Shown here piece after piece: positions 10,414 through 23,261 of a stretch of 34,110 nucleotides of DNA. The stretch is from NCBI GenBank assembly GCA_012031975.1, contig JAAUSA010000025.1, positions 1 to 34,110 on the forward strand. The letters are read 5' to 3'. A program made the position numbers and the translations under genes. How positions within the stretch are numbered: the first letter of the stretch is position 1; each line of letters opens with the position of its first letter. Source of the DNA: Alkalinema sp. RU_4_3. Lineage in GTDB: Bacteria; Cyanobacteriota; Cyanobacteriia; Leptolyngbyales; Leptolyngbyaceae. The notes under the pieces were generated by a model. That model saw only the letters and a program-made list of their open reading frames with translations, did no database searches and had not been told where the DNA came from.

Positions 10414-11124
10414 CTAGGAGGACAGATGTCGAATGACATTCTGAGCCACTACCAGGGTATTTTCCAAGCTATTGTCCTTCAGATACAGCCGAATTGTAGC
10501 GACTCCCGCTAAAAACTGACCTAGAGCTTGGATGCATTCTAGGATGCTGGCCACGTCTTGTTGTTTCAAGCGAGGGGCTATGGTGGCTTCGATCGCAGTA
10601 ACGCAAGTGCCAATATCCTGTCCAATATCCTCCGCTTGAGTATTTTTTAGTAAGGGGTGAATGGCTGAGTTAAGAAGATTGGCAGTGCTCTGGGCATCTC
10701 CCCTATTCACCTGGGCACGAATCAGCTCATAACTGGCAACAAGTCGCTCAACTTCCCCCATCAAACTGACGGTGTCGCGAGTTTTATGGCTTTTTAGCTC
10801 TGGTTTAATTGTATCGATCAGTTCAAAGACAGTATCCGGCTGTTCTTGGAATAACTTCTGTAGGGAATGTGAAGGAGGAGCAGAGGGTTGTTCCGGGGCT
10901 TCTCGCTTTTGCTTTGCGGCGTCTTTAAGTATTTCTTCCATCCACGCATTAATAGACTTGCCTGACTGTTTAGCGGCAAAGAAGATGTCTTCGTGAATGT
11001 CTGGGGTGGTCCGGAAGGGTAACTTGCCAGAGAAGGTTTTGGATGGCCCCCGGTCCTCTTGTGTAGACATAGGTTCCTTTGGGGAGATCGGCTTGTAGTT
11101 ATTATCCGAGGGAGAGATTTGCAT
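10414..11124 (-). CDS. Ribbon-helix-helix protein with helical C-terminal domain
   Basis: The 236-residue protein has a polar N-terminus (1-33), then a ribbon-helix-helix domain at about 34-72: the strand KLPFRTTPDIHEDIFFAAKQ, the turn SGKSINAW, and the helix MEEILKDAAK. This is the pattern of HicB C-terminal and CopG-type DNA-binding domains. Residues about 85-236 are all helical (FELIDTIKPELKSH..., VERLVASYELIRAQ, AIHPLLKN, VASILECIQALGQFLAGVA) and match no family I recognise. A strong ribosome-binding site GAGGAGAG 6-8 bases upstream fixes the ATG at 11124. GATATC palindromes flank the gene on both sides, which suggests that it regulates itself and both neighbours. The C-terminal domain may sense a ligand or partner; that is speculative. 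Confidence 0.75.
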   Translation of the reverse strand: MQISPSDNNYKPISPKEPMSTQEDRGPSKTFSGKLPFRTTPDIHEDIFFAAKQSGKSINAWMEEILKDAAKQKREAPEQPSAPPSHSLQKLFQEQPDTVFELIDTIKPELKSHKTRDTVSLMGEVERLVASYELIRAQVNRGDAQSTANLLNSAIHPLLKNTQAEDIGQDIGTCVTAIEATIAPRLKQQDVASILECIQALGQFLAGVATIRLYLKDNSLENTLVVAQNVIRHLSS

Positions 11125-11624
11125 GGTTTATCTCTCCTCGGAGACTGATACGAGTAGAGCTATATGAGGCCTTACAGAGCAATCGTTTCCGAATTGTTCA
11201 CGTGGAGACACATCCAATAACGGATTGACCTTGTAGGCCGTAATAGTCGATATCATTGCAGGAATTTATCGGGTAGAAGAACATCACAGAACTGTATTCA
11301 CTGGCAACAATTGCGAATCGGGTAGATATCAACAATTTTAATTCAGGATTACGGACTTTAACATAAACATTGACAAATTGTAAATTTTAATTACAAAAAT
11401 CAGATCTCTTACAGTCTCTTTGACACTTATGCTTAATCAGTTTAACACATAAGATATCATTTATGATACCATAAAGCATGAATTTGCCAAAAAATATGCT
11501 CCAGGTAAGAAAAATTGCTTGAGCTTTATACTAATGTCTAGTACTGACTATCTGATATCTAGAGTGATTTCACTAGGCAGATACAGAGTTGAGGTCTCGT
11601 CCTTCTACGCTAGGTAGCCTGAAC
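11125..11624. promoter_or_regulatory. 500-bp divergent control region with repeated GATATC palindromes
   Basis: This AT-rich region lies between the RHH gene and the large plus-strand gene. It holds CGATATCA at 11249-11256, AGATATCA at 11324-11331 and 11452-11459, and TGATATCT at 11553-11560. It also contains TTGTAA-N7-TTACAA (11378-11396) and TATCATTTATGATA (11455-11468). A possible plus-strand promoter is TTGCTT (11515-11520), 18 bases, TAGTAC (11539-11544), with the last GATATC just downstream, but it is weak. No gene is seen inside it. Confidence 0.55.
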
Positions 11625-14600
11625 ATGTTGGACAACCCCTACCCAAGGCAAGACGAAGAACAAGCCGTCTTGATACATTTTTCACTAATCAAGCCCTATG
11701 CTGGCTCGATCGGTGATCAGGAAGTTGCGTGGGCTTATGTGGAAGATCTTCTTAAGCAACTTAGTAGGGGTGTCCGCCTTTTTTGCTCTGAACATTATTT
11801 GAAGCATTTTTTAGTTGAGGTAATAGGAGTGGATCCGCAAGACCTGGATCCATGGCTTCAAGAGTGGGTTGATATGGGCGTTGAGCTACTGCCCGATCGA
11901 GATTTTTCCTTTTTCAGAATTATTTCGAATAATCAAGAATGGGATGATCACCTATGGGACCCTTACTTTGCTAATCTTTGCCTCTCTAAAGGTTGGATGC
12001 TAATGACCATCGATAATCCAGCGGTTTTCCGGCAACAGGGAATTTCGGTCGTTACACCTAATTGCTTCAGACTAGAGATCATCAGAGGCCAGTTAGAGAA
12101 GCTGTTGTGCTTGGAGTTCGTAGGCGAAAACTGTGATGCTGGTGAACCCCAAGCGATCCGATACCGATGGTTAATATGGATCGCAGCCCTTCTTTTGCTC
12201 TTGATGCGGTTGGGTGTTCGCCAAGGGGAGACGTTAGAAACCGTCGTAGGGAGCGAATCTTCTTCAGATCTAGAGCCGAACGTTAGCACAGGGGCCGAGG
12301 ATAGGCCTGCGATCGGAAACAGTCCAGCCCAGCCAAATGGCGGAAATGATGAAGAGCCGCCATCGGCGTCTAAAATGGTCCGGCCGAGGCGCCCCGCTCC
12401 AGGCTCGCCACCCAGTGGCATGAAAGATGCTGTTGTTGCATGCACAGAAAATTCATGCCCAGGAGATCCAGGCCAAGAAAATCTAGACCAAGAAGATGAC
12501 CTAGCGTCAATAGCTGCCGCCACCGCTATACGCAATTTAATCACCGAGTTGTTGTACCGAACAGGACAGCAGATCTTCGTTGAAGAGAATCTAAGAAATA
12601 TTGCACTCCAAGCCGTGGTTTGGAGTCTGATTCTAGAGGCCAAGCGAGCTTTAGCTGGGAGCGTCTTTGGGTCTTCCCCGCAATCTGACAGTTCTAGATT
12701 AGAATCTAAAACTACAGTAGATCGCCACGATACTCGATCGCTCCACTACGTAGCTCCTTCAGCAGATGGTGACGTTGGATCTCGTCCCTTGCAGAATGAT
12801 GCTTCTTATACATTCAAGTTCATTGGATCAGAAAAGCGCCTTGAACCATCTAAGTTGAATGAGCTGCATAGGCAGGTCGAACTAGAGAGAGAGGTGCTAG
12901 TTACCCAGGTTGTTGCAGCGGATACAAGACCGATCGTCAATGACCCTTCAAAGCAACTAGTCCTAGAAGACCAAATCGATCGGCTCGATCGCCTTCCCTT
13001 AACGGGTGACGTACCCATCCTACCGAAGGCCCCTGACAGCCCATCAGATTCTACTGGTGTCACAACCAACAATCCAACGAATGATGCGCCGAGCCTGCCA
13101 CCATCTAATCCCCCCCTGTCTCCCCAACCTGAGATCGAGCCGTTAGAAATTCTACGCCCTCGGGTATGGTCAGCGTTTAATGGCGTATACACAGTGGATG
13201 CTGGGGGGCAGATTTCGATCGACTATCTCATCGACGGTGGCTTCAATGAAGACTCTGTCGGAATCTTTGATTTGAGTCAGATGGATTTATTGCTCTTTGA
13301 TCCCCAGGCGTTTGCTCAAGAGGCGATTCGTCGGGTGCTGAGCAATTCGAGCCTGGGTCATGTGATCCTGTCCGATCAAACTGAGGGTGCCAAGTTCAGC
13401 GGCAAACTGCTCTATGAGGACACCGATCATAATCATGGTCCCTATGCTGGGATAAAAACCTTTGAGATGAATCCTGGTAGCCAGTTTGGAATCATTATGA
13501 TTCCTCAAGGTTCATTTCAATTGGGTTTGAATCAACCCGATCCCCAAGGTCCAATCTTCTCATTGGTAAATCCTGCTGGTAACTCGCCTTTCAGTAATGT
13601 GCAGATGGTTTCACTGTCTGGGGATTTGACTGTGGTTGGTATTGAAGACAGTTTACGGGCTGACAACTTAGACAAAGACTACAACGATGTAGTGATTCAG
13701 CTCAAGGGTGCAACGGGTTACCTACCAATACAGAACCTACAAGAAAATGATCGAAAATTCTTACCAGTATCGGAGAATATCGATCGCAAAGGTTCTGAAA
13801 GCCCTATTATACAACCGTCTCAAGGGATAGCTAAACTGGCGAACGACATGGTCATTAAATCCCTGAACCCTGTGAATGAGGATCCATCTGTCCAGTCGCT
13901 AGAATTTCAGCGGACTCGGGTATGGTCGGAATTTGATGGTGTATATACTGTGGGGGCAAGTGGGCAGATTTCGATCGACTACCTAGTAGATGGTGGCTTC
14001 TACGAAGGCTCTGTCGGAATATTTGATTTGAGTCAGATGGATTCTTTGCTTACTGATTCTCGGGCATTTGCTCAAGAGGCGATTCGCCGTGTGCTTAGCA
14101 ATTCAAGTTTGGGTCATGTTGTTCTTTCTGATCAGACTGAGGGAGCAAAGTTTAGTGGAAAATTACTCAATGAAGATGCTGATCATAATCATGGTCGTTA
14201 TGCTGGAGTCAAGACTTTCGAGATGAACCCTGGTAGTCAGTTCGGTCTCATTATGATTCCTCAAGGTCTATTTTCCCTTGGCTCGAATCAGCTTGATCCG
14301 CAACGACCTATTTTCTCTTTGGTCAATGCCAGTGGGAACTCGCTTTTCCGCAATGTGCAGATGATCTCATCGCCGGAAGACTCTTCTGTGATTGCGATCG
14401 AAGATATTCCATTAGATGAGAATTCCGATAAGGATTATAATGACATAATCATTCGACTTGAGGGCGCAAAAGGTCATTTGCCAACCCAAGGACTACAGGC
14501 AAGTCCTGATAGCATTGATTGTAAAGGTTCGACAAAATGGCTAAATAATGAAGATCCCTTCAAAAGACCTGCTCTTAAAACCACTGAACTGCCTCCAAAC

Positions 14601-14642
14601 CAATTATTGACTTCGCCACATGAAAACCTTGAGCTACGGTAA
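11625..14642 (+). CDS. Membrane protein with PIN-like N-terminus and two DUF4114 domains
   Basis: The 1005-residue protein has an unusual domain order. Residues 14-165 look like a PIN-type fold: WDDHLWDPYFANLCLSKGWM, then LMTIDNPAVFRQQGISVVTP fits the C-terminal half with its TxD motif, but the first acidic residue of active PINs is replaced by LIHFSLIKP. One membrane helix (WLIWIAALLLLLMRLGV) lies at about 182-198, followed by a Pro/Ser-rich linker, a helical patch at 293-347, and another linker. Two DUF4114 domains follow at about 507-705 and 760-955, each with the GxSVGIFDLSQMD start, SDQTEGAKFSG, and a DKDYND motif probably binding calcium. DUF4114 is known from large secreted cyanobacterial proteins. 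ATG 11625 has a TAGGT ribosome-binding site; a TTG at 11589 is the alternative. The orientation (N-terminus inside, DUF4114 outside) is inferred. Confidence 0.75.
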   Translation: MLDNPYPRQDEEQAVLIHFSLIKPYAGSIGDQEVAWAYVEDLLKQLSRGVRLFCSEHYLKHFLVEVIGVDPQDLDPWLQEWVDMGVELLPDRDFSFFRIISNNQEWDDHLWDPYFANLCLSKGWMLMTIDNPAVFRQQGISVVTPNCFRLEIIRGQLEKLLCLEFVGENCDAGEPQAIRYRWLIWIAALLLLLMRLGVRQGETLETVVGSESSSDLEPNVSTGAEDRPAIGNSPAQPNGGNDEEPPSASKMVRPRRPAPGSPPSGMKDAVVACTENSCPGDPGQENLDQEDDLASIAAATAIRNLITELLYRTGQQIFVEENLRNIALQAVVWSLILEAKRALAGSVFGSSPQSDSSRLESKTTVDRHDTRSLHYVAPSADGDVGSRPLQNDASYTFKFIGSEKRLEPSKLNELHRQVELEREVLVTQVVAADTRPIVNDPSKQLVLEDQIDRLDRLPLTGDVPILPKAPDSPSDSTGVTTNNPTNDAPSLPPSNPPLSPQPEIEPLEILRPRVWSAFNGVYTVDAGGQISIDYLIDGGFNEDSVGIFDLSQMDLLLFDPQAFAQEAIRRVLSNSSLGHVILSDQTEGAKFSGKLLYEDTDHNHGPYAGIKTFEMNPGSQFGIIMIPQGSFQLGLNQPDPQGPIFSLVNPAGNSPFSNVQMVSLSGDLTVVGIEDSLRADNLDKDYNDVVIQLKGATGYLPIQNLQENDRKFLPVSENIDRKGSESPIIQPSQGIAKLANDMVIKSLNPVNEDPSVQSLEFQRTRVWSEFDGVYTVGASGQISIDYLVDGGFYEGSVGIFDLSQMDSLLTDSRAFAQEAIRRVLSNSSLGHVVLSDQTEGAKFSGKLLNEDADHNHGRYAGVKTFEMNPGSQFGLIMIPQGLFSLGSNQLDPQRPIFSLVNASGNSLFRNVQMISSPEDSSVIAIEDIPLDENSDKDYNDIIIRLEGAKGHLPTQGLQASPDSIDCKGSTKWLNNEDPFKRPALKTTELPPNQLLTSPHENLELR
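13164..14476 (+). repeat. Tandem duplication of the DUF4114 segment
   Basis: The stretch starting at 13164 recurs from 13920 with a period of 756 bp (252 codons). At protein level the copies agree over about 190 residues, with long identical runs such as AFAQEAIRRVLSNSSLGHV and FEMNPGSQFG. The linker between the copies is not repeated. The copies differ mainly at third codon positions, so the duplication is old enough to have diverged silently while the protein was kept. Confidence 0.85.
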
Positions 14643-14685: not shown

Positions 14686-16083
14686 CTAGTTTTCTAGTTC
14701 TTGCAACCGCCTTTCTGCTTTGCCGATCAGGTACTTTCGGGTTATTTCATCCTCAACGCCTCGTGCCAGATTGATTCCATTAATAAGCATCTTTTTCTCT
14801 TCAGTTAGTTGACCCAGTCTGCGATAAATAGGAGCGATATAATCAATGAGATTTTCACTCTGGTTACAAGTATCATGTTCTTGTTCATAAAATGTATTTG
14901 CTTGGGACAAGTACTTGAGCGCTTCATAGGGGTCTGATTCCATTTGACCAAATCGTTGATAGGCATTTGCCTGACCTAAAATATCGTCTGGCTCAATCAG
15001 CTCTAAAGCTTCACGATAAAATGCCTTTGCTAAATCATTCAATGTCATAATGCGCCAGATTTCACCTATCCCGAAAAGGATCTCAGCTTTCCCTGAACGA
15101 CTTGAAACCTTCTCTCTTGCTTGCTCATAGTATTCTAAAGCTTCGTCGTAGCACTCTTTCTTTTTTAGGACATCACCTTTGCCCTTTAAAGCTCTTGACT
15201 CACATTCAGTATCATTAACCTGACGAGATCTTTGAATCGATTGATCATATGCCTCTATAGCTTCATCTAGTCTATCTAGTTTCTCTAAAATATCCCCAAT
15301 ATTTTCCAAGGATTTCGCTATCCCTTGAATGTGATTGTTTTGTTTATATAAGTCAACAGCCCTCTTTAGATGAGATAAACGTTCTTCTAGCGTACAATTT
15401 GGGTAATTATTCCAACCTAACCAATGATAGATAGCTGCTTGAATATCTTGCCTGACAAGATTTGTGGATATTTGCTCAGTTAAGTTTTTGGCAAATAAGT
15501 TCAATCCGAGATCTGGAAGATCATAACTATTCCCATCAAGAAATGTATAAAAATCTTCCTGATAGTTTTCTCCTATACTAAATAATCCCTCGTGAGTGTC
15601 ATCTATGCCTGTCAAGACTGAATGATAAATCCATTCAATTTTATCAAACTGGTTTTGTTGAGCTTTTTCCTCAAAATAACTAGCAGCATTTTTCGATAAT
15701 CGATAAAATTCTTCGCGATCGCGCTCCCCTAGATTCTCTAACATTTTTCTTCGAGTTAATTCATGAATATTAAAATTTTCTCTACTGTGAAGACATGATT
15801 CTGAATTAGCTTCCAAATATTCTTCTGGCCCTTGCCAATAACCTCGAAATGATTCTACAAAAGGTAGGTTGTTCAGTTGTAAGTAGAGGTCCCCAATCTG
15901 GTTATCTAGTTCTGGCAATATAGCTTTCAGAACTTCTTCATTGAACCAATGTGGGATTGCAGCAGCCCAAACCAACGAAGCTAAATTATTAGGCAAAGTG
16001 GAAAGCAAAGATTCTGTGACGATCCAAGAACGATCCTCATCTGTTCGGGCATTTTCTAGCCGAGACCAAAGTGCTGGATCCAT
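14686..16083 (-). CDS. TPR protein with winged-helix-like N-terminus (STAND partner)
   Basis: The 465-residue protein begins with a region (about 20-150) that resembles the winged-helix part of STAND ATPases: NNLASLVWAAAIPHWFNEEV, LYLQLNNLPFVESF, and NFNIHELTRRKMLENL. From about residue 205 there are at least six tetratricopeptide repeats, for example SLENIGDILEKLDRLDEAIE, ALKGKGDVLKKKECYDEALE, and EILFGIGEIWRIMTLNDLAK. It starts one base after the ATPase stop, with GGAGG as ribosome-binding site inside the end of the ATPase gene. In typical STAND proteins ATPase, winged helix and TPRs form one chain; here they are on two. It probably senses a trigger or partner through the TPRs (inference). 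Confidence 0.8.
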   Translation of the reverse strand: MDPALWSRLENARTDEDRSWIVTESLLSTLPNNLASLVWAAAIPHWFNEEVLKAILPELDNQIGDLYLQLNNLPFVESFRGYWQGPEEYLEANSESCLHSRENFNIHELTRRKMLENLGERDREEFYRLSKNAASYFEEKAQQNQFDKIEWIYHSVLTGIDDTHEGLFSIGENYQEDFYTFLDGNSYDLPDLGLNLFAKNLTEQISTNLVRQDIQAAIYHWLGWNNYPNCTLEERLSHLKRAVDLYKQNNHIQGIAKSLENIGDILEKLDRLDEAIEAYDQSIQRSRQVNDTECESRALKGKGDVLKKKECYDEALEYYEQAREKVSSRSGKAEILFGIGEIWRIMTLNDLAKAFYREALELIEPDDILGQANAYQRFGQMESDPYEALKYLSQANTFYEQEHDTCNQSENLIDYIAPIYRRLGQLTEEKKMLINGINLARGVEDEITRKYLIGKAERRLQELEN

Positions 16084-16084
16084 C

Positions 16085-16870
16085 TTATTTCATCCTCCGT
16101 TCAGCGTCTTGGTGAAAATGATATCCCAATGCTTGGGGAGAGCCTTTAATAATTCTTACTAAGCCTTCTACATGCGCTGAACTATGTTCAAGTCCTAGTT
16201 CCTTGGTAAAGTTCTCCCATTTCTGCGGATCATGAATCGCGTCTAAATGAAATCGTTTGCAATGGCGTTCCCATTGAGAATTTTCTTCCAGGGATTTTTG
16301 TCCTGATAATATGAGTCGGACATTATTGCTGCGTTTAATTTCCGGGAGCCATCCTCCATCTAACCAAGACACAATATCGCTTTGAGAATCATTGAATTTA
16401 TCGATCGCTAATATTAGAAGCTTTTCTACATGCTCTAAATACTCACATAGATCTTGAAAAAAGAAATTTAGAGTGCGAGAAAGTATATACGGAGAGGCGC
16501 TATTTGTTGGCATTACTATGTTTGCGTCTAAACTCCCTGATATATAGTTGTTGCTAATTGCTACTTGGGGGGATGCGAGTTCTTGCGCTTTTTCAAAACG
16601 ATTAAATTCGCACATGTCTTGGTGCTGTGACTTGCTGAATACTTGCAACTCACGAATGATTTGACTAAACAAATAGTCTGGCGCAATTATTGACTGTAGG
16701 TCCAAACGGATTACTAATGCATTACTAGGGCATTGGCTTTCAAAGTGATCTAGTAGAAAAGTTTTCCCAATTCCTGAGGAACCAGAAATTAAAACAATAC
16801 AGTAATCTGTAGATTGTTGAGCCAAATTCAAACAGGCTTTAAGCTCATGATCTCGATTTGCTAATGCCAT
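16085..16870 (-). CDS. P-loop ATPase, STAND-like
   Basis: The 261-residue protein has a Walker A motif GSSGIGKT at about residues 30-37, a likely Walker B strand KLLILAIDKFND near 149-160 (the aspartate lies in the strand; no acidic pair follows), and an arginine-bearing strand NVRLILSGQKS like sensor 1. A helical lid follows (WENFTKELGLEHSSAHVEGL, then RIIKGSPQALGYHF), which includes the G-x-P motif of STAND/AP-ATPases. There is no N-terminal effector domain, so any effector must be a partner; the membrane protein encoded just upstream is the candidate. An insertion with NNYISGSLDANIVMP between Walker A and B is unusual. The start ATG is at 16870, preceded by AGGA. Confidence 0.8.
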   Translation of the reverse strand: MALANRDHELKACLNLAQQSTDYCIVLISGSSGIGKTFLLDHFESQCPSNALVIRLDLQSIIAPDYLFSQIIRELQVFSKSQHQDMCEFNRFEKAQELASPQVAISNNYISGSLDANIVMPTNSASPYILSRTLNFFFQDLCEYLEHVEKLLILAIDKFNDSQSDIVSWLDGGWLPEIKRSNNVRLILSGQKSLEENSQWERHCKRFHLDAIHDPQKWENFTKELGLEHSSAHVEGLVRIIKGSPQALGYHFHQDAERRMK

Positions 16871-20638: not shown

Positions 20639-23101
20639 TTACGCCAAGGTTCCCACCGCCTCAGCCTTGGCGATCATTGCCTTGAGTTTTGCGCGATCGA
20701 GCACCGCTGGCTGAAAATCAGGCCGAATCACCAGGGCCTGGTCAAAGGACACCACCGCCTCGGGAAACCGTTTCAGTTCGCACAGCACCCGCCCCCGCCA
20801 GTACCAAGGCGTATGGCTCGTCGGATCGAGCTGGGCCGCCCGCTCAAAGCAGGACACCGCCTCCCGGTAGCGCTTCAGCTTCACCAGCGCCCCCGCCAGA
20901 CAGCACCAGAGCGTCGGATTCTGGGGTTTGCCCTGGATGGCCCGATCGTAGGCACCGATCGCCTCCTCATAGCGCCCTAGGGCCACCAGCAGATTCCCCC
21001 GCCACTGGGACACAGCGGGATCATCGGGATTATTCTGAATCGCCCGGTTGTAGGCCGCCACCGTCTCACGATGACTGCGCAGTTTTTCCAAAATCTTGCC
21101 CTGGAGTCCCGCCGCTCGCGGCCCGCTCGCCGCCGTCAGCCGCACCCCCGAGACCATCATCACCGACTGTGCCTCCAGGCCATCGCCATCCATCTGGGTC
21201 AGGGGCTCATCCATGGCCTCAATGGCATCCTCCCCATCCACCAAACTCGGCTCCGCCAAACTCGCCAGCTCCCCGTAGGGAATCGCCACAGGCGCCGAAG
21301 GTCCAAGCACCGTGCTGTCATCCTCATCAATGGCCTCCGCCTCCTGCCATTCTGCCGCCGTCTGGAGCTGCAGACATCTCAGGGTCCGCTCCCGGCCCTT
21401 CACCGCCACCTGCAGGGTGCTATCGAACTCCATCACCTGGTTGTAGGACAGCATCGCCGCCTCATACTGCTGCAACTGCTCCAGCGCGATCGCCCGTTTC
21501 AGCCAAGCCTCCAGGTTATCCCCCTGCAGGGCGATCGCCTCGTCATAGGCCATGACCGCCTCTGGATAGCGCTTCAGCGCCTGCAACACCTGCCCCCGCT
21601 CCAGCCAGCCCGCCAGACTCTTGCCCAAAATGGCCAGGGCCACATCCAAGGCCGTGAGGGCTGCCTCATAGCGCTGCTGTTTGGACAGGGCGATCCCCTG
21701 GGCTAGCCAGGCGGTGCCATCGTCGGGCTTCTCCTTCAAAATTAAGTCCGCCACCGTCAGCGCTTCATCATAATGCTGTAGCTCCAACAGCAAATCTAAG
21801 CGTCGCATGCCGCTCAGGAGTCGCTTGCGGCTTTCCACGGCCAACTGGAAATCGGGCTTAATCGCGATCGCCTTCTTATAGGCCACCAAAGCCGCATCCA
21901 TCTGACCCAACTGCTCCAGAACCTTGCCATGGTCATGCCAGGCCCAATAGTCCCGAGGCTGTAATTCCACCACCCGACGGTAGCTGGCCAGGGCCTCCTC
22001 GTAGCGCAGGAGATTCTCCAGGACCACGCCGCGCTTGGACCAAACGCTATGGTTGTTGGGCTCAAATTGCAGGACGCGATCGTAGCAGGTCAAGGCCGCC
22101 GAAAATTGCTGCAGCATCTCTAACACCAACCCCCGCTTCAGCCAGGCCATGGGACTTAAGGGGTTGGCTTGGACCGCCTCATCAAAGGCCGCCAGGGCCT
22201 CCCTATAGGAATTTTGCTGGTAGAAGGATTCGCCCCGCTCAATCCAGGCTAGGCTACCATCCTCTGACTGCTGGCGGCTAATTTGGCTGCGATCGAGGCG
22301 CTCCAGATCCGCCGCCACCTCCTCCACCGTGCGATAGCGCTGCCGGAAGTCATAGCGCACCATGCGATCGAGGATATCCGCCAACCCGTCACTCACGGTG
22401 GCCCGGTCCCGCCACTGCAACTCATGGCTGTCGGGATCAATAATTAAGTTCTTGGGGGCGATCCCCGTGAGGGCCTGGATGGCGATCACACCGATCGCAT
22501 ACAAGTCACTGCCAAAACAGGCCCGCCCCGCCAACTGCTCCGACGGCGAATATCCTGTTGAACCCACCACCACCGTCAGGGGATTGCTGCCGCCGGGTTC
22601 GATGGCCACCTGTTTCACCGCCCCAAAATCAATCATCACGATTTTGCCATCGGCCTGGCGACGAATCAGGTTGGCGGGCTTCAAGTCCCGATGAATCACC
22701 TGATGTCCATGGACAAAGGCCAGCACCGCCAAGATCTCCGTCAGCAGGTCCAGCACCTCCAGCTCAGAAAAGGTCTTGCGCTGCTTAAATTCCTGGTTCA
22801 GCACCGTCCCTTGCACAAATTCCTGCACCAGATAAAACTCATGGTCCTCCTGGAAATGCGCCGTCAGCCTGGGAATCTGTGGATGGTGCCCCAAGGCATG
22901 CAGCACCTCCGCCTCGGTGTCAAACAGTCGCCTTGCCGCCTGCAGGGCCTCCGGCTGGGTCACCTTCGGCTGGAGCTGTTTGACCACACAGAATGGCTTG
23001 CCTGGCAGATGTTGGTCCTCCGCCAGGTAGGTGCGCCCAAATCCCCCACCGCCGAGTTGGCGGATGATCTGGTAGCGACCTCCTAAGATTTGGTGTGACA
23101 T
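20639..23101 (-). CDS. Serine/threonine protein kinase with TPR repeats
   Basis: The protein of 820 residues joins a Hanks-type kinase domain (about 4-270) with a long TPR array. Kinase motifs are GGGGFGRTYLAED (glycine loop), CVVKQLQP (catalytic Lys), HRDLKPANLIRR (catalytic loop), MIDFGAVK (DFG), and GSTGYSPSEQL (activation segment). About eleven TPRs follow in two blocks, separated by an acidic, low-complexity spacer near residues 600-660. There is no membrane segment, unlike many Pkn proteins. ATG 23101 (MSHQILGGRYQII) gives the usual family start; a GTG six codons earlier is an alternative. This kind of kinase-TPR fusion is frequent in cyanobacteria; targets are unknown. Confidence 0.93.
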   Translation of the reverse strand: MSHQILGGRYQIIRQLGGGGFGRTYLAEDQHLPGKPFCVVKQLQPKVTQPEALQAARRLFDTEAEVLHALGHHPQIPRLTAHFQEDHEFYLVQEFVQGTVLNQEFKQRKTFSELEVLDLLTEILAVLAFVHGHQVIHRDLKPANLIRRQADGKIVMIDFGAVKQVAIEPGGSNPLTVVVGSTGYSPSEQLAGRACFGSDLYAIGVIAIQALTGIAPKNLIIDPDSHELQWRDRATVSDGLADILDRMVRYDFRQRYRTVEEVAADLERLDRSQISRQQSEDGSLAWIERGESFYQQNSYREALAAFDEAVQANPLSPMAWLKRGLVLEMLQQFSAALTCYDRVLQFEPNNHSVWSKRGVVLENLLRYEEALASYRRVVELQPRDYWAWHDHGKVLEQLGQMDAALVAYKKAIAIKPDFQLAVESRKRLLSGMRRLDLLLELQHYDEALTVADLILKEKPDDGTAWLAQGIALSKQQRYEAALTALDVALAILGKSLAGWLERGQVLQALKRYPEAVMAYDEAIALQGDNLEAWLKRAIALEQLQQYEAAMLSYNQVMEFDSTLQVAVKGRERTLRCLQLQTAAEWQEAEAIDEDDSTVLGPSAPVAIPYGELASLAEPSLVDGEDAIEAMDEPLTQMDGDGLEAQSVMMVSGVRLTAASGPRAAGLQGKILEKLRSHRETVAAYNRAIQNNPDDPAVSQWRGNLLVALGRYEEAIGAYDRAIQGKPQNPTLWCCLAGALVKLKRYREAVSCFERAAQLDPTSHTPWYWRGRVLCELKRFPEAVVSFDQALVIRPDFQPAVLDRAKLKAMIAKAEAVGTLA

Positions 23102-23261
23102 GGTCAAAGATGCTGACACAAGGGCGATCGCAAAAGATGCGAGAGAAGATAGGAACTATTGTTAGATTTCCCCAGGGCTAACTTAAATTAGCGCGCCTCC
23201 CAGACTTCATCCGGTATTTACGTAGCCAGAGCCAAAACCTCACCCCCCGGACCTATGCTTG

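Follow-up and report, generated by a model that had tools for sequence, protein, structure and literature searches.

A predicted PIN-fold domain joined to calcium-binding modules and linked to an RHH gene in cyanobacteria: a possible signalling device derived from a toxin-antitoxin pair

The window analyzed here, the whole stretch of 34,110 nucleotides from contig JAAUSA010000025.1 of Alkalinema sp. RU_4_3, contains an open reading frame for a protein of 1005 amino acids (11625..14642, + strand). The frame runs from an ATG at 11625 to 14642 and has no internal stops; an in-frame TTG at 11589 is a possible alternative start, less likely than the ATG. Four kinds of element follow one another in the protein: a probable pseudo-PIN domain, a hydrophobic helix, a linker and two DUF4114 modules. 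A gene for a 236-residue HicB-family RHH protein (10414..11124, - strand) was identified beside it by Pfam (PF05534, E 9.6e-10) and by its linkage in relatives, and the sequence between the two divergent genes (11125..11624) is an upstream region common to both. Two genes elsewhere on the - strand, one for an AAA/STAND-like ATPase and one for a TPR protein, abut each other at 14686-16870 and may be one split protein. The - strand also encodes, at 20639-23119, an 826-residue protein in which a protein kinase domain precedes a long array of TPRs.

The presence of two DUF4114 domains, proposed in an earlier sequence-only reading of this DNA, was confirmed by Pfam (PF13448, E 8.7e-24, 84.7 bits against a curated cut-off of 27, in two stretches) and by a genome scan, which placed the Pfam core at 13467-13709 and 14223-14465. 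The repeated unit is larger than this core. Comparison of the modules delimited two units of about 194 residues each, 75% identical and both with the motif DKDYND, at residues 513-706 (13161..13742, + strand) and 765-958 (13917..14498, + strand). Between them dN is 0.14 and dS is 1.8, which indicates purifying selection on both copies. The modules are preceded by a linker recognized by its composition, rich in Pro, Ser, Thr, Asn, Gln and Gly with acidic residues (residues 199-512, 12219..13160, + strand). Upstream of the linker, hydropathy analysis located the hydrophobicity peak of the whole protein in the segment YRWLIWIAALLLLLMRLGV (residues 180-198, 12162..12218, + strand), with a mean Kyte-Doolittle value of 1.73. 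This segment is a probable membrane helix. It is a marginal one, because its uncharged core, flanked by two Arg, comprises just 13 residues. Corresponding helices of the protein family described below have values from 1.1 to 2.3 and are weak in many relatives too, and charge bias did not fix the direction of the helix. Of the membrane helix proposed earlier, the hydrophobic segment is therefore present, while its hydrophobicity is marginal.

The RHH protein has its RHH at residues ~24-66, followed by a helical C-terminal extension; it lacks the HicB N-terminal fold that is present in most relatives. The two window genes are divergent and so have a promoter region in common rather than an operon; elsewhere in the family they are in tandem. 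No RHH operator or inverted repeat above a Markov null was detected in 11125-11624, and no HicA-like gene of at least 90 aa was found between or beside the two window genes. Defence-system models gave no fit to these two genes, and a search of viral contigs with the RHH alignment gave no relative. The sequence-only reading had included neither the adjacent RHH gene nor the wider family carrying RTX repeats.

Entry to this family was gained by a DUF4114 search, which led to a genome (G007) of the same taxonomic family as the window organism. It encodes an 884-residue protein with an N-domain, a hydrophobic helix, a proline-rich linker and a C-terminal DUF4114, as in the window protein, and the gene next to it encodes an RHH protein related to that of the window. 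Relatives of the extended RHH gene were gathered from 20 regions and from the genome_contigs set. Nearly all of those with a readable 3' side precede, on the same strand, a gene for a pseudo-PIN/helix/linker/calcium-binding protein. These partners have 600 to 900 residues, or fewer at contig ends and in broken frames. A ~150-residue N-domain leads into a hydrophobic helix and a low-complexity linker, and most of the partners also carry RTX repeats (Pfam E 1e-10 to 1e-20).

Within genome_contigs the linkage could be counted: ten extended RHH genes (L171-178, L248, L250) have a PIN-like gene next to them on the same strand, and the ~68 short HicB genes were all without an RTX or DUF4114 neighbour. 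A doubtful exception is L208, a 343-aa frame with a weak match and without a PIN-like partner. Named family members include those of Elainella, Pegethrix, Phormidium tenue and Drouetiella. The same linkage was present at L153, L158, L163, L168, L169 and L101, and with a larger gap at L165 and L167. At one locus (L170, genome G177) the RHH match lies in a 313-codon frame with no PIN-like or calcium-binding neighbour, and another (L166, genome G266) is cut at a contig end. Distances between RHH proteins and distances between N-domains were correlated over 16 loci (r 0.81, with 0 of 2000 permutations as high), a correlation which common descent of neighbouring genes also predicts.

A class-wide search with the family profile found 18 places in 16 genomes at E < 1e-11. 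Fourteen of these genomes belong to one taxonomic family and two to that of the window organism, to which the window and G007 contribute a further two. Most members have RTX repeats as their calcium module, whose place is taken by DUF4114 in the window and G007. In genome G008 (L169, 7188-9803) the PIN-like protein is a strong family match and its C-terminal region is neither RTX nor DUF4114 and is beta-rich. The partners at L151 to L164 also have a conserved region of ~150 residues before the RTX repeats (NFGGVGRG...VDTLKF...DLLITFE), which has no Pfam name.

The RHH-type partner varies as well. In the window and in G007 the HicB fold has been lost, RHH and extension being retained; in G187 the PIN-RTX gene comes after one that encodes the HicB fold and the extension, and the RHH is missing. 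Judged from these sequences, what stays constant in the RHH-type partner is the extension, which always goes with the PIN-like protein. At the G187 locus (L281, 3530-6425) the PIN-like RTX gene is preceded by the gene for the HicB-fold and extension protein and followed by one for a short HicB with RHH, so that two halves of a HicB-family protein are divided between genes. In the genome of the window organism another RHH gene encodes both the HicB fold and the extension (L282, 3-593, contig C268), and the contig end cuts this locus where the partner gene would be.

To place the window N-domain relative to the others, a profile of 15 family N-domains was used, from which the window and G007 were excluded. 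Residues 15-94 of the window domain were aligned by hhalign on profile positions 4-88 with a score of 31.3 (P 1.4e-4). When 600 N-termini from the same loci served as decoys, this score was reached only by the second copy of the window, so that it exceeded all 599 distinct decoys; 0 of 300 shuffles reached it. HMMER alone gave E 5.4 for the window domain, which is not significant. The N-domain of G007 scored 24.2, a high rank although one unrelated decoy beat it, and when it was aligned directly with the window N-domain the result was not above chance. Given the profile score and the linked extended RHH gene, the window N-domain likely belongs to the pseudo-PIN/RHH family, whose sequences are far apart.

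Searched alone, the N-domain had no significant homologue in Pfam, NCBIfam, PDB sequences, 388 genomes of the class, genome_contigs, viral contigs or plasmids. Its single-sequence AlphaFold model was poor (pLDDT 43), and a fold search with that model returned nothing significant; the order of helices and strands was still PIN-like. When 10 family homologues were included, AlphaFold produced a model of ~155 residues with a mean pLDDT of 75, a pTM of 0.69 and PIN topology, in which the predicted elements follow the PIN alpha/beta/alpha order b-a-a-b-a-a-b-a-b-a-b. Foldseek placed PIN structures on top (7vwo_A with probability 1.00; no E < 0.001). VIA-align gave Z 9.8 against RNase P HARP and 8 to 9 against VapC proteins, and its best 50 rows were almost entirely of the PIN superfamily or PIN-like. 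This model is not independent of the family, because family homologues in the alignment helped to build it.

The tie between the family and PIN_3 is supported by sequence as well as by the model. In the class-wide search the next matches of the family profile, after its members, were stand-alone proteins of ~140 aa (E 1e-4 to 1e-7), and all seven tested were PIN_3 (E 1e-22 to 1e-26). Weaker matches were obtained between the L152 partner and PIN_3 (Pfam E 0.086) and between the family profile and six PIN proteins of the window organism's own genome (P 0.025). Together, the AlphaFold model, fold searches, profile match and PIN_3 alignment place the PIN-fold domain at residues 12-157 (11658..12095, + strand). 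The sequence-only reading had recognized only the C-terminal half of a PIN fold and had advised comparing a predicted structure with PIN folds. In that comparison the model built with homologues had PIN topology, and its nearest solved folds were almost all PIN; the proposed fold stands, and its extent has to be enlarged to a whole domain of residues ~12-157.

Alignment with active PIN_3 proteins showed which residues of the window domain occupy the canonical acid positions: His18, His61, Asp112 and Asp130, the last being one column off owing to a gap. His18 agrees with the earlier suggestion that the first acidic PIN residue was lost. This loss is general, as the first catalytic Asp (DTN motif) is absent from 19 of the 19 family members with a residue there, being replaced by Ala, Ser, Gly, Val or His. 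The remaining catalytic acids are not conserved as a set across the family. At the position of a Gln in active PIN proteins, Glu is found in 18 of 20 members, although not in the window protein. The description of the domain as RNase-like is thus unsupported. With no first Asp in any of these 19 members, we regard the domain as a probable pseudo-PIN rather than an RNase, and a binding role as more likely than catalysis.

The same data bear on a working toxin-antitoxin pair, in which a membrane-tethered PIN ribonuclease would be restrained by the RHH protein. Such a pair would be in keeping with a fold closest to VapC and RNase P-type structures, with the RHH gene first and its partner second in relatives, and with the retention of Asp112 and Asp130 in the window protein. 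We consider it very improbable: besides the loss of the first catalytic Asp throughout, the second is His in the window, and type II toxins do not resemble proteins that are 600 to 1000 aa long and have a hydrophobic helix.

Apparent signal peptides are present at the N-termini of two further DUF4114 proteins of the window organism (L061, L062), in favour of an outside position for DUF4114. The RTX calcium-binding repeats of the sibling proteins likewise suggest an outer module of an exported kind. Alternatively, the whole protein might be exported, for example by type I secretion as for many RTX proteins; the PIN-like domain would then be extracellular, and the RHH protein would only regulate expression. 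The C-terminal RTX repeats of the sibling proteins and the weak membrane helix agree with whole-protein export. It is nevertheless improbable, as a nuclease effector would not be expected to lack the first catalytic Asp, which is gone from every member, and the partner is of a DNA-binding type and of no known immunity family. A further explanation, unlikely though less so, is that these are mainly surface or adhesion proteins in which the PIN-like domain serves as an inert anchor or in autoregulation, the RHH protein senses the level of its partner and no outside signal is transmitted. Large surface proteins of these bacteria do typically contain DUF4114 and RTX modules, and no active site is conserved in the PIN domain. 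What this explanation fails to account for is that the PIN fold and the specific RHH extension stay together despite the exchange of the outer module.

Because the inner pair persists through exchanges of the outer module, and because an outside position of DUF4114 is favoured, we propose a membrane-sensor model. It builds on the computed domain order, the predicted PIN fold, the loss of the first Asp, the RHH linkage and the exchange of outer modules. We give a probability of roughly 45% to a two-gene module derived from a toxin-antitoxin pair, in which a cytoplasmic pseudo-PIN binds the RHH extension and an outer calcium module switches the regulated genes. The binding of the pseudo-PIN to the RHH protein, the topology, the calcium response and the gene regulation are inferred as follows. 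The module would descend from a type II pair, whose PIN toxin fold, its active site lost, would have been reused in the cytoplasm to bind the RHH protein by its C-terminal extension. The hydrophobic helix and the long linker would join this domain to a calcium-binding module beyond the inner membrane, namely DUF4114 in the window protein and RTX in most relatives. Folding of the outer module with calcium, or its binding of a ligand, would alter the grip of the pseudo-PIN on the RHH protein, and the changed grip would switch RHH-controlled genes in the manner of RsgI-type anti-sigma factors. The pseudo-PIN would thereby retain the RHH regulator in the cytoplasm, with the exported calcium module gating its release.

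Overall, the data suggest that a toxin-antitoxin pair was converted into a surface-to-gene signalling device. More tentative is its description as a transmembrane calcium-gated regulator in which an inactivated PIN captures or releases a former RHH antitoxin and RTX and DUF4114 are interchangeable outer sensors. If the proposal is true, the pseudo-PIN should be bound by the RHH extension and transcription should be altered by external calcium. It would also reveal a route by which a toxin-antitoxin pair turns into a membrane signalling system, and would assign a function to one class of cyanobacterial calcium-binding proteins.

The N-domain resembles PIN_3 (PF13470), known from stand-alone VapC-like cyanobacterial proteins, in predicted fold order, in length and, at the level of the family profile, in sequence; it differs from them as a probable pseudo-PIN without a conserved set of catalytic acids and in its long C-terminal part with a helix and calcium-binding modules. 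With type II toxin-antitoxin systems such as VapBC and HicAB the module shares adjacent genes for an RHH/HicB-family protein and a PIN-fold protein, the antitoxin-like gene being first in relatives. Its disabled active site, large size, hydrophobic helix and outer module set it apart. A 2009 survey stated that membrane components were unknown among type II systems and described HicB as strictly paired with HicA (PMC2701414), whereas here the partner of a HicB-family protein is a PIN-like protein. In their C-terminal modules the proteins are like cyanobacterial DUF4114 and RTX surface proteins, but those examined in detail mostly combine such modules with subtilase-like or other secreted domains, and none of them outside the family has a PIN fold fused to DUF4114 or RTX. 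The architecture had been put forward as undescribed, and indeed no description of it, of a membrane- or calcium-linked PIN/antitoxin pair or of a pseudo-PIN/RHH module was found in the open literature. There is a real chance that this pair of probable toxin-antitoxin origin, its toxin fold disabled and an outer module added, represents a new kind of signalling system. RsgI-type membrane anti-sigma factors have an N-terminal cytoplasmic binding domain, one membrane helix and an exchangeable outer sensor. The likeness lies in the proposed logic only, that of an inner binding domain, a helix and an exchangeable outer module; the sequences are unrelated, and the partner is an RHH protein here and a sigma factor there.
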